From Phaeodactylum tricornutum CCAP 1055/1 (Eukaryota > Bacillariophyta > Bacillariophyceae > Surirellales > Neidiaceae), in the NCBI RefSeq assembly GCF_000150955.2, contig NC_011677.1:520078-584077 (forward strand): 64,000 nt of DNA, given 5' to 3'. Shown piece after piece: positions 2-6,642 of the stretch. Below the pieces are notes generated by a model. That model did not search any database and had not been told where the DNA came from. It was given only the letters and a program-made list of their open reading frames with translations. Numbering within the stretch: the stretch's first letter is position 1; each line of letters opens with the position of its first letter. The position numbers were made by a program, and so were the translations under genes.

Positions 2-358
2 CCACTCGTGATTGGCCTCGAACCTTGCGTTTCTGAAAAGAAAATGTCACCCATCAGCTCGGATGCAACAGTAAACTCCACAACGGCATACCGACCATAT
101 CTGTGTTCGCTCGACATGATAGGTGCGACCTCTTTATCGAATGAGTTTGTTTGTGCAGGCGCAGCAATCAAGTCCATCTACGGAACCGCCGAAGCCGCCT
201 ACCAACCAAATCTGTCAGGAGATGAACTCGTGGAAGCATGCGGAAAAGCATTTTTAAGTGCTCTGGAACGAGATTGTTTAAGTGGTTATGGCGCCGTTGT
301 ATACCTCATCACTTCCGATGGAATTGTTGCCTACGAACTCGAAGGCCGTAACGATTAA
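2..358 (+). CDS. PSMB3: 20S proteasome beta-3 subunit, C-terminal part
   Basis: The open frame enters from the left edge and ends at TAA 356-358, so the N-terminal half of the gene lies outside the window. The visible residues include the family signature PYLCSLDMIG followed by a SGYGAVVYLI-type strand and a short acidic tail. These match the C-terminal half of the proteasome beta-3 subunit, a non-catalytic member of the beta ring of the 20S core in cytosol and nucleus. The reading frame is already coding at base 2 (Pro-Leu before the first GTG), so no start codon is present here. Compared with animal PSMB3, a serine/threonine-rich insert of roughly 15 residues precedes the PYLCSLD motif. Family assignment is by motif recognition. 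Confidence 0.85.
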   Translation, partial: PLVIGLEPCVSEKKMSPISSDATVNSTTAYRPYLCSLDMIGATSLSNEFVCAGAAIKSIYGTAEAAYQPNLSGDELVEACGKAFLSALERDCLSGYGAVVYLITSDGIVAYELEGRND

Positions 359-444: not shown

Positions 445-1074
445 TTACTTGAGCTTCGCCACGAGTGCGGCAAGTTTGTTTTGGTCTGCCCCCATCATTT
501 CCTCGATTTTTTCTCCATTTCGAAAGAATTGGAACGTGGGCATGGCGCGGACACCGCAGTGGGCGGCGACGTCGTCGGCTTCGTCAACATCGACTTTCAC
601 GAATTCAATATCCGGATTCTCTTCCGCTAGCTTTTCGAAAATGGGTCCAATGTACTTGCAAGGTCCTAAAATAACAAAATGGAGATTTCAGTGAGCTTGC
701 GTTACTTTCTTTGGTAACTCACGACATCAATGTTGAAAAGCCCGTGTCTATGAGATATCCGGTTTCCCGCATGCGTGACCGTTAGGTGCGAGTCAGCTCC
801 GAAAAGATTCTCCGATATTTTCGCAACAAATATCTTACCACACCTTTAGAATTTAGAAACAATGGAATTGTCAGAGACCTTTCTTTCATAAAAGGAAGAT
901 GAAAGACATATTTTGACCGCATTGAGGATTTGCGCGGCGGTGAAATCTGTCAAAGCCTCTCGCCAATAATCAGAAAACCTACCATGTAGCCGTAAAGTCG
1001 ACCACAACAAGCTTTGTCTTGGAGGTCTCCAACATAGTGTTGAAGTCGTCCATCGATTCCAGATGTTTCACCAT
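445..1074 (-). CDS. TRXh: Thioredoxin h with a 5-nt microexon
   Basis: Spliced model on the minus strand: exon 1 1074-983, microexon 843-839 (GTGTG), exon 3 665-445; 318 nt, 105 aa. Exon 1 encodes MVKHLESMDDF and the beta strand LVVVDFTAT, ending with the first two bases of a Trp codon at a GTAGG donor. Exon 3 starts with GA CCT TGC AAG (GPCK). Joined directly the frame is lost. The five bases flanked by AG and GTAAG restore it and create exactly WCGPC, the redox active site. The remainder has the normal thioredoxin fold signatures, including the cis-Pro segment RAMPTFQFF and a C-terminal helix. The length is typical of h-type cytosolic thioredoxins and no targeting extension is seen. The role is thiol-disulfide reduction of cytosolic targets. 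The upstream in-frame extension to 1269 contains no better start. Confidence 0.88.
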
Positions 1075-1656
1075 GATGATAAGTGGGTAATAATCGTGTT
1101 TTATCGTATTGTTCAACAACGGTGGAGATTTTGCTTTTGTGACCGTAGTGTGAATGGTCGAACTGCTGCGATCCCCGCCCGAGTTTTCTACGCGAGAAAG
1201 AGCCTTTTTTGGAGATAAAACTACCTGGGCTGGAATTCTCGGTTGATCGCAATCAGCCGCAAAACCCAAGGAATCGAAAGGGTTCGATGACGAGACCTGT
1301 AGTCTAGCTATTCATGTCAAGCGAATCCTGTCGTATGACAAGACCATACCGAATTTTTCTATAAATATAGAAAGATTCGTTTTGGAATCACTGACGGATT
1401 GGAGTGAAAAGTATAATCGACTTTTTCAAGATATGTCGTCGCCGACAGTCTGTCAAACGAAAACAACGATGTAATGGTTTTGGTATGCTTCTCTCAATGC
1501 AAAGGCATTCCACAACTTTCCGGTTGATGGAACTGAGACTAAAGATTATAGTAAACCGCTTTCATTTGGTTTTCTATCAAGTGGTCGAATCTGACTCGGT
1601 TACCTCTTCCAACTAGACAAAGAGAAGCACCAAAAAGAGACAATCTGGGCCTTGAC
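1075..1656. promoter_or_regulatory. Divergent intergenic region, TRXh / truncated globin
   Basis: About 580 bp separate two divergently transcribed genes. An AT-rich TATAAATATAG stretch lies near 1361. Short open frames here (for example 1404-1616) have no recognisable composition or homology and are not called genes. Confidence 0.4.
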
Positions 1657-2268
1657 ATGAGCAAGCTACAGCTGCAGCAGGCAACCCAAGAACGATGTGG
1701 AGTATCCTATGACGAGTCGTTGGAGGCCCAACGTCTCGTGCCATCAATCTTTGAGCGCATTGGGGGAGAAAAAGGATTTCGAGGATTGTCAGAAATGTTT
1801 TACAATTTCGTTTTTGATGATCGAGAGGCAACTTGGTTTCTAAATATTTTTTCAAGCAGCACACGCGCGGAAGCCATTGAAAACCAGTACTTATTTTTTG
1901 TCCAAACATTCGGTGGTCCTGATTTGTACAAACAAAAGAAAGGCAAATACACTCGTCTCGTTGGCCGACACGCAAACTACAATATTGGGCCGCAAGCTGC
2001 TGATCGGTGGGTATATCATATGAAACGGGCATTGGACCAGAATGAGCACCTATCAAGTGATGCCGAGACCAGAGAAAAGCTTCACAACTACTTTCTTTAC
2101 ATGGCGCATTATATTGTTATTGCAGGCGAGTATATGCGACCCGATCAAGTAAGTATGCCGATGCTGTCATTGCTACATCTACTTTCCACATAAATTCACA
2201 TCTTATTCCGCTTTTCTCTTTGCAAGCTGAGTGGTGGCACAAAGGTTGATACTGGCAGGGTGTGGTAG
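1657..2268 (+). CDS. Truncated (2/2) haemoglobin, group II type
   Basis: Two exons, 1657-2148 and 2227-2268, with a 78-nt GTAAGT...AG intron in phase 0; 177 aa. After about 28 residues comes the globin domain: the FERIGG start, a B-helix with the B10-type Tyr in MFYNFVF, the segment FVQTFGGPDLY typical of 2/2 globins, the proximal-His region RLVGRHANYNIG, and a Trp at the G8 position in ADRWVYHM, which is characteristic of group II truncated haemoglobins. The second exon adds only 13 residues. Known family roles are O2, NO or peroxide chemistry at haem; which applies here cannot be read from sequence. The start is the first ATG after an in-frame stop, and no targeting peptide is evident. Confidence 0.85.
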
Positions 2269-2699: not shown

Positions 2700-3593
2700 A
2701 TGAAAGTCAGCGCTACTCTTTTTCTATCCTTTCTCTTTGCTGCGGTTCCCTGCACTTATACGCTGTCGATGACTTCTCCCAAAATGGCAAATTCGGAGAG
2801 TTCGAACCGTCTGAGCCGATGGGCAGAGCGAGTAAGATTTCCCACGCAATCTCCAGTCTGTTTCTTGTCCCAAACTCGTAACTAAGAAGCCTTTTCTATC
2901 ATATCTCTTCTCGGAAAGTGGGCTGACAGTCGCATTGGTTGGCACGAAGAAGGGGTACATGATTCCATTTTGCGCTACGGTGATCGACTTATTTCTACTT
3001 TGCATGACAGCGATGCATGCCCCACTCCTGCTCGTGTGTTCGTACCGCTGTGTGGCAAGACTGTGGATTTGGCATTCTTTGCCAAAGCTGATGCTGTTTC
3101 GGAGGTGGTAGGAGTCGATGGAGTACGGAAGGCGCTTGAAGAGTTTGCCCAAGAACACACAGACTTAAAACTTGCTCCGTTAGAAGACCAGACGGACGAA
3201 TACGAAAGATTGGTTGGGGAAAAGATTGCCCTATTAAAGGGCGATTTTTTTCATCTGGATGAAAAAGTAACAAATGGCAGATTCGACGCCATTTTCGATC
3301 GAGCGTCCATTGTTGCCATCGATCCCAGTTTGAGAGAGGAGTACGTGAACGTACTGAGCAGGTTGATTCAGCCCGGAGGAAGAATTTTATTGGTTGTCAT
3401 TGAACGAAAAACCGGGACAGACTTTGATATGCAAGGGCCACCTTTTTCCGTACCGGAGACAGAAGTGCGACGTTTGTATGAAAATCAGAGCTGGGTCGAG
3501 TCTGTAACACTTATTGAGGAGGAAGGCGAGAAGGGTCGGAATACTCCTGGATCTGGGATGAACTCTCTTTATTTCATCATTCAAACAAAATAG
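2700..3593 (+). CDS. TPMT-family thiol/halide methyltransferase
   Basis: Exons 2700-2831 and 2919-3593 (87-nt GTAAGA...AG intron, phase 0) give 268 aa. The join reads RWAER|WADSRIGWHEEG, the aromatic substrate/SAM entry region of the thiopurine S-methyltransferase family. The class I SAM fold follows: VFVPLCGKTVDLAFFA (motif I variant with PLCGK), VVGVD, then FDAIFDRASIVAIDP (post-I/motif II) and GGRILLVV. The family methylates thiols, or halides in algae and plants, using S-adenosylmethionine. The actual substrate here is unknown. The N-terminus is hydrophobic (residues about 5-20) and could be a signal peptide, suggesting a secretory or plastid route rather than cytosol. A later ATG (Met24) would remove it. 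Confidence 0.8.
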
Positions 3594-4074
3594 AGTTATA
3601 TTGAAATCATTTGCCACTTTCATAGTCTAATTTTCTCTGCCAATGTGGAGATTGCGAGCTGGGTTCATGCCTGATTCAAAGAACTGTAATTATTAAATGG
3701 TCATTCACTGTCAGGGATGCAAATCAAACCTATTTCAACGGTTTTGCTTCCAACTTCATTTGAAACGCTTGATGAATCCTTGGTTAATACTGAGCCTAGT
3801 GCGAAAAACTGGAACTGTTCTTATATCCTTATTTTAATACGGGATCGGATTCGCTGTTGCACTCAGGGTAAAGCTCATTCTTTCCATAGTCGCTTCGGTG
3901 ACCATTTTTTTGGATCGTGTGATATATAACCCGCACCTAAACGACGAACGCAATTCAACCCTACCCTCACCCGGACAGACACACTCAGCGAATCTGTTTA
4001 TCTTGTTGCAACGATCAAGCGACCATGGAGGGAAAACGTCTGGTAGAATTCACAATCTGAAGGCGACCAACGAC
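3594..4074. promoter_or_regulatory. Intergenic with a TCACTGTCA motif
   Basis: About 480 bp. An exact TCACTGTCA lies at 3705-3713; the same 9-mer or its complement recurs in other gene-upstream intervals of this window. No gene is seen. The downstream frame stays open up to a GTG at 3898, but its first in-frame ATG is at 4075. Confidence 0.35.
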
Positions 4075-6642
4075 ATGTCATCCATCTTTCCTTCCTGCCT
4101 CTCCTTACCGATACGGCGATTACCAAGCGTTCTCAGAAACACCACGTTCACTGCTGCTGCCAACGACAACGACGACGACAACGAGGGGCACGATTCGGGA
4201 CTGGACGAAGTGGAAGAATCGGAAGTCTGTATCTTACCAGATTTGGGAGCCTTGCGATTTTGGTCACATCCTCATCGATCACTTGACCTCACTATGGATC
4301 GACAACAGGGAGTTGTTTGGAAACGCCGTGATGTCTTTAAAAATCGCTGGCGACCTCGCTGGTTTGTGTTGCAGCCTGGCCAGGGAGTCCTGACCTACTA
4401 TCTCTTGACGGCACCCGTTTCGACCGCCATCAACTCCATTGCTCTACCCTTGATTCCTGACGTCTCATCCGCTGACAATGACCACTACAGAGGTACTCGA
4501 AATGTTGCTACTTCTGCTTCTCTACAACCAACTTTGCGCAATGGTGGAGGTTCCAATGCCCGGGATCGGGTGACTTCTTGGGATTCGGCCGTCTCCGAAA
4601 ATACGCTGGATTACGATGTAGTACCTCGCGGGACTATTTATCTACTCGGCTGTACCGTGGATGTGAATGATGCACTTAGCAGACCCCGTGATAATCTTTT
4701 CGCCTTTACGATCATTCCGCCAACTTCAATGGAGAACAAAATTCATTTGGCGGTCCGTACGGCCGAAGGACGCTCGGCTTGGATAAACAAACTCGCTAGG
4801 GTGGCGCGGGTTGGATCCCCGCCGCTCATCCGATCCATTTCCATTCCGGAGGAGCCAGATCATTCTTTCGAGCATGAAGATGACGAACACCGTCTCCTTG
4901 ACAGAGAGAATGATTTACGTGAAGTAGATTCAACTACTGATACAGTCTGGAAGAGTGTAGGAAGCCGTGAATCGCTGTATAAAGAATTGCCGGATGCGCT
5001 GGCAAACGAAATTGAGGAAAAGCTAGCACAGTTCTTGCCCATTTGCGATCAGGGACCCACCGTTGGTTGGAAGTTGATTTTTGAGCGGGATGAGGATGCC
5101 GCGTATCGAAAAGAGGATCCGAACAGTGGGCAGACTATGATCAAAAGCATCGCGTTGTTAGAGCATCCTCCGAAACAAATCTTGGATATCTTGCTTGACA
5201 TTCAACGTCGTACCAATTTCGAATCCACTTTTCGTACTGGGGAGCGCTTACGGACTCTTAATGCGCACACTTTTTTGGATTTTTACGCGTACAACGCTAT
5301 CTGGCCCACAGCAGCGCGAGAGTTTGCCATTGCGATGCACTGGCAGGTAGTAGGCCGCGATGATGAAAGGGCGATTTGCATCATAGGGTTTTCGTGCCCC
5401 GATGCAGAAAGCGTTAAACCTGTGGAGCCTCATCATGTTCGAGGCCGCTTGATTATATCGATGTATCTACTGCGGCCGGTTGGGGAAGGGCAGTGTCACT
5501 TAACACGGCTCCTGTCGTTTGATCCAATGGGTGGAATTAATAAACATTTGGCCCGAATCGTTTTGCAGCAGCAAGCGGGACTCCCTGCTGTACTCGGAAA
5601 GTTTCTGGATCGCCACAGGTCTGTTGTGCCTTTCAGACTTACCGGACGCCTAAGGGACGACGATCTAATTCGAGATGTTGTGGAGCACTTGCCCAAACCA
5701 AACTCGACGGACGCCGTTCGTGGAACGCTCGACTGTACAACCAACCATTCGCTTGTTCTTGCCGGTTCGGAGACGTCGAGAGACGGTATAAAAGTGGACA
5801 ATGATGACCATTTGCCCGTACGGGGTAGGCAGGCTGCGATTTTGATTGCTCCTCTTCTTTTGTATAAAGTATGCATTCTCATGGGGTCTTCGTGGTCGTT
5901 CCCTCTGTTTTGCCTTGGTGTATTTCTTGCTGTAAGGCAAGTCGCTATACAGCACTTGGGTAAAGTGCTCCCGCATATCCCGCTTGAGACTCAAATTGCT
6001 GGGCCCGTTACATGCCGTTTCTCCGTGAATTTGAAGGGAATTCTGCGTTTCATCGCGAACAAGAAAGAGGAACGAACAGATCTTCGAAGAGGTACTTCCG
6101 ATGTGTCCGTAGTGCATCTTGTTGTAGCGGCTATATCCCGTGCTCTGAGAAAAGAACCGTCTTTGCGGTCTAAAACTTGTACGATACCATGGCTACTGAT
6201 TGACGAACGTGTAGACCAATCACGTGAGTCTGTGAGAGTTTCCGTTTCGGAAAATGCAGACGGCGTGGTAACGCTTGAGAACGTGGACAATCTCTCCGTT
6301 CAAGAAATAGCTGATGAAGTGAAAAAATTGGATAGCTGGCGCGACGAGGCCCAAAACATTGGCGAGTGCCTCGTTCTTGCCACGCCGGACTTTGATAGTA
6401 GTAACATGGAAATTGACGTTACTTCGGGCTGCTCTGAAGTTACGGTTGTTGCTGTTATCGGTGGAGTTCATTTGGAGCGTTGCAGCCAGAAGGGACGCCG
6501 AGCAAACGATGAAAGACCCAGACCCATGCTATCACTTTCTTTAACAATATCTGCACCCTATCAAACACAAATAGTTGCTGCGCGGCGCTTCGCGGAAGAA
6601 GTACAAAAGCTACTCCAGTTTCCGGAAATGTGTGACAATTGA
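4075..6642 (+). CDS. PH-START protein with acyltransferase-like C-terminal domain
   Basis: 855 aa from ATG 4075; the frame is open further upstream to a GTG at 3898 but lacks an ATG there. Order of parts: acidic N-terminus; PH domain about 77-242 (starts VVWKRRDVFKNRWRPRWFVL, a long basic-aromatic PH strand); START/lipid-binding domain about 313-538, with FDPMGG and a VLGKFLDRH-like end; a hydrophobic segment about 587-625 probably crossing a membrane; then about 641-855, which reads like the chloramphenicol acetyltransferase/E2 fold (FSVNLKG, VVAAISRAL, VENV-like core, and a final IVAARRFAEEVQKLLQFPE helix). At the place of the E2 catalytic HxxxD the sequence has PYQTQ, so no acyltransfer activity is expected. 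A role in lipid sensing or transfer at a membrane is inferred. EDR2-like plant proteins share the PH-START order. Confidence 0.7.
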   Translation: MSSIFPSCLSLPIRRLPSVLRNTTFTAAANDNDDDNEGHDSGLDEVEESEVCILPDLGALRFWSHPHRSLDLTMDRQQGVVWKRRDVFKNRWRPRWFVLQPGQGVLTYYLLTAPVSTAINSIALPLIPDVSSADNDHYRGTRNVATSASLQPTLRNGGGSNARDRVTSWDSAVSENTLDYDVVPRGTIYLLGCTVDVNDALSRPRDNLFAFTIIPPTSMENKIHLAVRTAEGRSAWINKLARVARVGSPPLIRSISIPEEPDHSFEHEDDEHRLLDRENDLREVDSTTDTVWKSVGSRESLYKELPDALANEIEEKLAQFLPICDQGPTVGWKLIFERDEDAAYRKEDPNSGQTMIKSIALLEHPPKQILDILLDIQRRTNFESTFRTGERLRTLNAHTFLDFYAYNAIWPTAAREFAIAMHWQVVGRDDERAICIIGFSCPDAESVKPVEPHHVRGRLIISMYLLRPVGEGQCHLTRLLSFDPMGGINKHLARIVLQQQAGLPAVLGKFLDRHRSVVPFRLTGRLRDDDLIRDVVEHLPKPNSTDAVRGTLDCTTNHSLVLAGSETSRDGIKVDNDDHLPVRGRQAAILIAPLLLYKVCILMGSSWSFPLFCLGVFLAVRQVAIQHLGKVLPHIPLETQIAGPVTCRFSVNLKGILRFIANKKEERTDLRRGTSDVSVVHLVVAAISRALRKEPSLRSKTCTIPWLLIDERVDQSRESVRVSVSENADGVVTLENVDNLSVQEIADEVKKLDSWRDEAQNIGECLVLATPDFDSSNMEIDVTSGCSEVTVVAVIGGVHLERCSQKGRRANDERPRPMLSLSLTISAPYQTQIVAARRFAEEVQKLLQFPEMCDN

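Follow-up and report, generated by a model that had tools for sequence, protein, structure and literature searches.

A thioredoxin gene of the diatom Phaeodactylum tricornutum very likely consists of three exons, of which the middle one is the five nucleotides GTGTG and carries the codon of a catalytic cysteine. The gene is predicted on the minus strand, at complement(join(445..665, 839..843, 983..1074)), in the first 1.1 kb of the window, by which we mean the whole stretch of 64,000 nucleotides analysed (contig 9, 520078-584077); the genome searched alongside it comprises 27,450,724 bases in 88 contigs. We contend, with a probability of roughly 0.87 judged from the sequence, that this is an ordinary thioredoxin whose mRNA would normally contain all three exons, the microexon being constitutive and situated between two short introns that are removed sequentially.

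The coding part of exon 1 (983..1074) runs from MVKHLE to DFTAT and closes with the TG of a tryptophan codon, its 3' end reading ACATG at 983 and being followed by GTAGG. Intron 1 (844..982, 139 nt) has the ends GTAGGT...CTAAAG, and intron 2 (666..838, 173 nt) the ends GTAAGA...TTTTAG, both assigned by sequence match alone. Between them the microexon (839..843, read from 843 to 839) would supply the last base of the tryptophan codon, the cysteine codon TGT and the first base of a glycine codon; its flanks are canonical, with AG at 845-844 before it and GTAAGA after. Exon 3 (445..665) starts with GACCTTGC at 665, directly after TTTTAG, and comprises the GA of the glycine codon followed by PCKYIG and the remainder of the protein to VAKLK and the stop. 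When spliced, the exons of 92, 5 and 221 nt form 318 nt in frame, encoding 105 amino acids with no internal stop, and this product contains TATWCGPCKYIG with the active site WCGPC. A search for a targeting extension, confined to the same open frame 5' of 1074, found no in-frame ATG. The preliminary description had placed the exon boundaries in the same positions and had proposed that GTGTG, between AG and GTAAG, gives an in-frame thioredoxin with WCGPC, and both agree with our reconstruction, as does its statement that a direct join of exon 1 to exon 3 loses the frame; in our reconstruction this join meets a stop after 50 amino acids. The tryptic peptide LVVVDFTATWCGPCK of the predicted product covers parts of all three exons.

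A proteasome subunit gene, the end of which is present on the plus strand (window 2-355; Pfam Proteasome, 3e-10), converges on the thioredoxin gene tail to tail; its stop was placed by eye at 356-358, approximately 86 bp from the thioredoxin stop. Head to head with it is a truncated (bacterial-like) globin gene (1555-2193, plus strand; PF01152, 3.6e-27), whose open frame, again by eye, leads into what looks like a GTAAGTATG donor near 2150. Further along the plus strand there are a thiopurine methyltransferase-like gene (2886-3593; PF05724, 4.9e-42) and, after it, an ORF that carries PH and START domains (3838-6642).

The case for the microexon depends chiefly on an enumeration of the GT/GC-AG splicings that begin at the ATG at 1074 and finish at the stop at 445, no intron being shorter than 40 nt and no middle exon longer than 150 nt. 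A single GT/GC-AG intron is rejected as an alternative, since CxxC occurs in none of the 30 full-length one-intron ORFs (and WCGPC likewise in 0/30). Two introns yield 2,471 full-length ORFs, of which seven contain CxxC and one contains WCGPC, and that one is the model with the GTGTG microexon. Inclusion of GTGTG is the sole enumerated canonical route to WCGPC, and among these splicings the microexon is needed for the conserved frame and protein.

How readily such an arrangement might arise by chance was gauged with dinucleotide-preserving shuffles of the 317-nt gap between exons 1 and 3, the five terminal bases on each side being left out. The core AG-GTGYG-GT (Y being T or C) appeared in 48 of 100,000 shuffles, in 37 of 100,000 when neither intron was allowed below 40 nt, and in 1 of 100,000 with a GTRAG donor. 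Restoration of the frame was rejected as evidence, since at least one open, frame-restoring microexon of up to 51 nt was found in 346 of 400 shuffles; the real gap has two. The claim that only GTGTG could rescue the gene is upheld for WCGPC, for which it is unique among the enumerated splicings, and fails for the frame, the rescue of which is unspecific; the specificity comes from the coding of WCGPC and not from the frame. In a genome-wide search of both strands that skips very common words, AGGTGYGGTRAG was listed five times, once of these here, while its backward-read control was listed 19 times.

The gene product is most likely an ordinary cytosolic eukaryotic thioredoxin of the Trx1/Trx h-like kind, its localisation being a prediction. 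Residues 8-102 of the 105 match Pfam Thioredoxin (PF00085) at 2.4e-29, and residues 2-103 match the PDB entry 2ypm, named LAFCA thioredoxin, at 1.7e-36; this is the top match, LECA thioredoxin and others are the runners-up, and reconstructed ancestral and animal thioredoxins lead among the best 60 of 300 matches. For the product of the skipped form, Pfam gives no match at an E-value of 0.001. With cytosolic eukaryotic thioredoxins (Trx1/Trx h) the predicted protein shares its length of 105 amino acids, WCGPC and the PF00085 domain; unlike theirs, the active-site codons of the diatom gene would be divided among three exons. Thioredoxins are listed in the P. tricornutum proteome as B7FP57 (2), B7G0C9 (5), B7G0P5 ('thioredoxin f', 3) and B7G7L6 ('thioredoxin h', 3), where we take the figures to be peptide counts (PMC5070409).

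A search of the genome with the thioredoxin protein gave at least 20 matches, from which eight loci (L001-L008) were built and examined, two of them (L001 and L006) being the gene's own exons. The other 12 matches fall outside the eight-locus set, and one of these (C18:155639-155755) belongs to the L008 gene as its first exon. In five paralogous loci (L002, L003, L004, L007 and L008) a single uninterrupted frame contains W-C-x-x-C, and L005 has no [WF]CxxC. The idea that the microexon is shared with paralogues was rejected, and the genome offers no precedent for a split motif, because none of the five W-C-x-x-C loci has an intron there; among the loci examined, the predicted division of the active site is particular to the gene at 445-1074. 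L008 (G000:C18:155639-156070) is a paralogous thioredoxin gene with a 138-nt intron located 3' of WCGPC and not within it, and its product has, by eye, a hydrophobic, signal-like N-terminal extension. The search for relatives gave two matches only, both to viral contigs, at 45% and 32%.

With regard to the splice signals, we compared the two candidate introns with reference introns from elsewhere in the genome. Eight split genes were tried and six were clear, five of the Ras family and one thioredoxin paralogue, while L030 and L034 were dropped because no solution stood out. Since the search for these six introns demanded GT and AG at their ends, information comes from the adjacent bases only; the introns are 79 to 138 nt long, with the donors GTAAGT (four), GTAAGA (one) and GTATGA (one), and with acceptors that are CAG or TAG in 6/6. 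Ras-family matches on two contigs, at C45:19358-19919 and C53:19360-19921 (L028, L029, L039 and L040), have near-identical positions and identical scores, and C45 and C53 are perhaps allelic or duplicate contigs.

The lengths of the introns proposed here, 139 and 173 nt, are near the mean of 142 bp published for Phatr3 introns (PMC5859163). The ends of intron 2 (GTAAGA...TTTTAG) resemble the six reference introns; the AAAG acceptor of intron 1 differs from all six, and this counts against the predicted three-exon structure. A weak donor in intron 1 was considered and rejected, since it has 6/9 matches to the general consensus, equal to the donor of intron 2. Pyrimidines make up 70% of the sequence before the acceptor in both introns. 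As pattern matches only, intron 1 has a branch-like CTGAC approximately 28 nt before its 3' end, and the last 60 nt of intron 2 contain no CTRAY, the looser CTCAC being found approximately 27 nt before the end; the missing CTRAY also counts against the three-exon prediction.

In proposing how such a gene is spliced, we suppose that GTGTG is included constitutively and that each short intron is recognised separately, by intron definition. The acceptor and donor on either side of the microexon are five nucleotides apart and presumably could not be occupied together, so the two introns would leave one after the other. Intron 2 probably goes first, having the ends (GTAAGA/TTTTAG) that look like those of the genome's other introns; its removal would join GTGTG to exon 3, after which intron 1, whose AAAG acceptor is less usual, would be removed. 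This order would prevent skipping, since the loss of intron 2 deletes the competing acceptor that skipping needs. A recursive splice site has the form AG-GT, and the microexon resembles one in starting with GT: were intron 1 removed first, the new junction would again contain a GT. Unlike a recursive site, however, this junction (ATG-GTGTGG) has 4/9 matches to the donor consensus, where intron 2 has 6/9, and splicing from it would put the gene out of frame. Failure at either step would give a truncated product that lacks the active site, predicted at 31 amino acids if intron 1 is retained, at 77 if intron 2 is retained, where the motif reads WCGK, and at 50 if the microexon is skipped, none of them with WCGPC; the preliminary description was correct that skipping would shift the frame and remove the N-terminal catalytic cysteine.

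The order of removal is proposed by analogy with plants, in which the introns beside microexons are apparently removed consecutively (PMC8831610). According to the same survey, 16 of 69 constitutive microexons had downstream-first reads without upstream-first ones and four the reverse, while the remaining 49 had reads of all kinds, 32 of them mainly downstream-first, such that the downstream intron goes first only or mostly in 48/69 (PMC8831610).

The preliminary description went beyond structure in treating inclusion of the microexon as an all-or-none switch on redox activity. The corresponding hypothesis, that inclusion of GTGTG varies with light, nutrients or redox state and thereby turns the active protein on or off, we regard as improbable. 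It is true that skipping and the retention of either intron all give products without WCGPC, and that intron retention is reported in 2,924 and exon skipping in 2,444 of 12,177 P. tricornutum gene models (PMC5859163), with shifts reported under nitrogen starvation (PMC5859163). However, an exon that shifts the frame within an active site is expected to yield a dead product whenever it is mis-spliced, so that loss of activity on skipping is no proof of control, and the switch is not supported. Nor does the splicing survey bear on this exon in either direction: it used Bowtie mapping and annotated genes having at least two exons, with 50 bp as the shortest intron considered (PMC5859163), and given that mapping and its reliance on annotated multi-exon genes it may not resolve an exon of 5 nt, so it is neutral on GTGTG. 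Slightly less probable again is a more elaborate proposal, in which stress detains or skips the exon with the catalytic cysteine, producing a fast and reversible loss of newly made, active main cytosolic thioredoxin and perhaps a stable 77-residue product reading WCGK.

The remaining explanations dispense with the microexon or with its active site. A gene split within its most conserved motif can resemble one in decay, and the AAAG acceptor is unusual beside the six reference introns, so the locus might be a pseudogene copy or contain an assembly error at the active site; yet the rest of the 105-codon frame is intact and thioredoxin-like over residues 2-103 (1.7e-36 against the PDB), and the five nucleotides required have an AG before them and a GTAAG after them, an arrangement whose core arose in 48 of 100,000 shuffles, which makes decay or error very unlikely. 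We give the least credence of all to another choice of splice sites that produces a protein without WCGPC, for instance through a 35-nt internal exon at 878-844 or a one-intron form. In its favour, 14 two-intron solutions retain both DFTAT and IGPIF and 13 of these lack WCGPC, but such forms would lose the catalytic cysteine pair or insert unrelated residues into the active site, although the rest of the enzyme is conserved. Constitutive inclusion of GTGTG in an ordinary thioredoxin is the reading we retain.

The 5-nt exon is most likely a further case, as predicted here, of a known class of microexon, in a striking location. Among small plant microexons (15 nt or less) there are 1-nt exons in APC11 and VPS55, and rice Os08t0562700 has a 5-nt exon validated by RT-PCR (PMC8831610); 2,398 small microexons were found in that survey, most of them previously unannotated (PMC8831610), and the word 'thioredoxin' has no occurrence in its main text. 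Like these, the diatom exon would be coding, very short and frame-changing, would lie between two introns, and would be both necessary for an intact protein and easily missed in annotation; unlike them, it belongs to a diatom, lies inside a catalytic motif and is known here from sequence alone. The literature searched, whose coverage leaves out most subscription journals, yielded no report of a diatom microexon. The remark in the preliminary description that exons so small are rare in compact algal genomes is plausible, as is its view that gene finders usually miss them, the latter by analogy with plants (PMC8831610).

As for its origin, the microexon may have been created when one intron was inserted five nucleotides from another. 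Sahrawy et al. 1996 are said to have described plant Trx h genes with an intron at the active-site tryptophan codon, perhaps the same place as intron 1 of the diatom gene; in contrast to those plant genes, a second intron 5 nt further on would be extra in the diatom. If the Trx h intron does lie there, intron 1 may be old, with intron 2 gained later at a distance of 5 nt. In the Trx-1 genes of Taenia and Echinococcus the two introns fall outside the active site, at residues 13-14 and 65-66 (PMC4452251).

Introns in P. tricornutum number on average 0.7 per gene (PMC5859163), and the predicted GTGTG exon, from a diatom whose introns are few and short, provides a clean, checkable example of a very small exon. 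It would show how an intron-poor genome can encode catalytic residues in an exon that is too short for recognition alone, and a gene model that omitted these five nucleotides would depict a broken redox protein.
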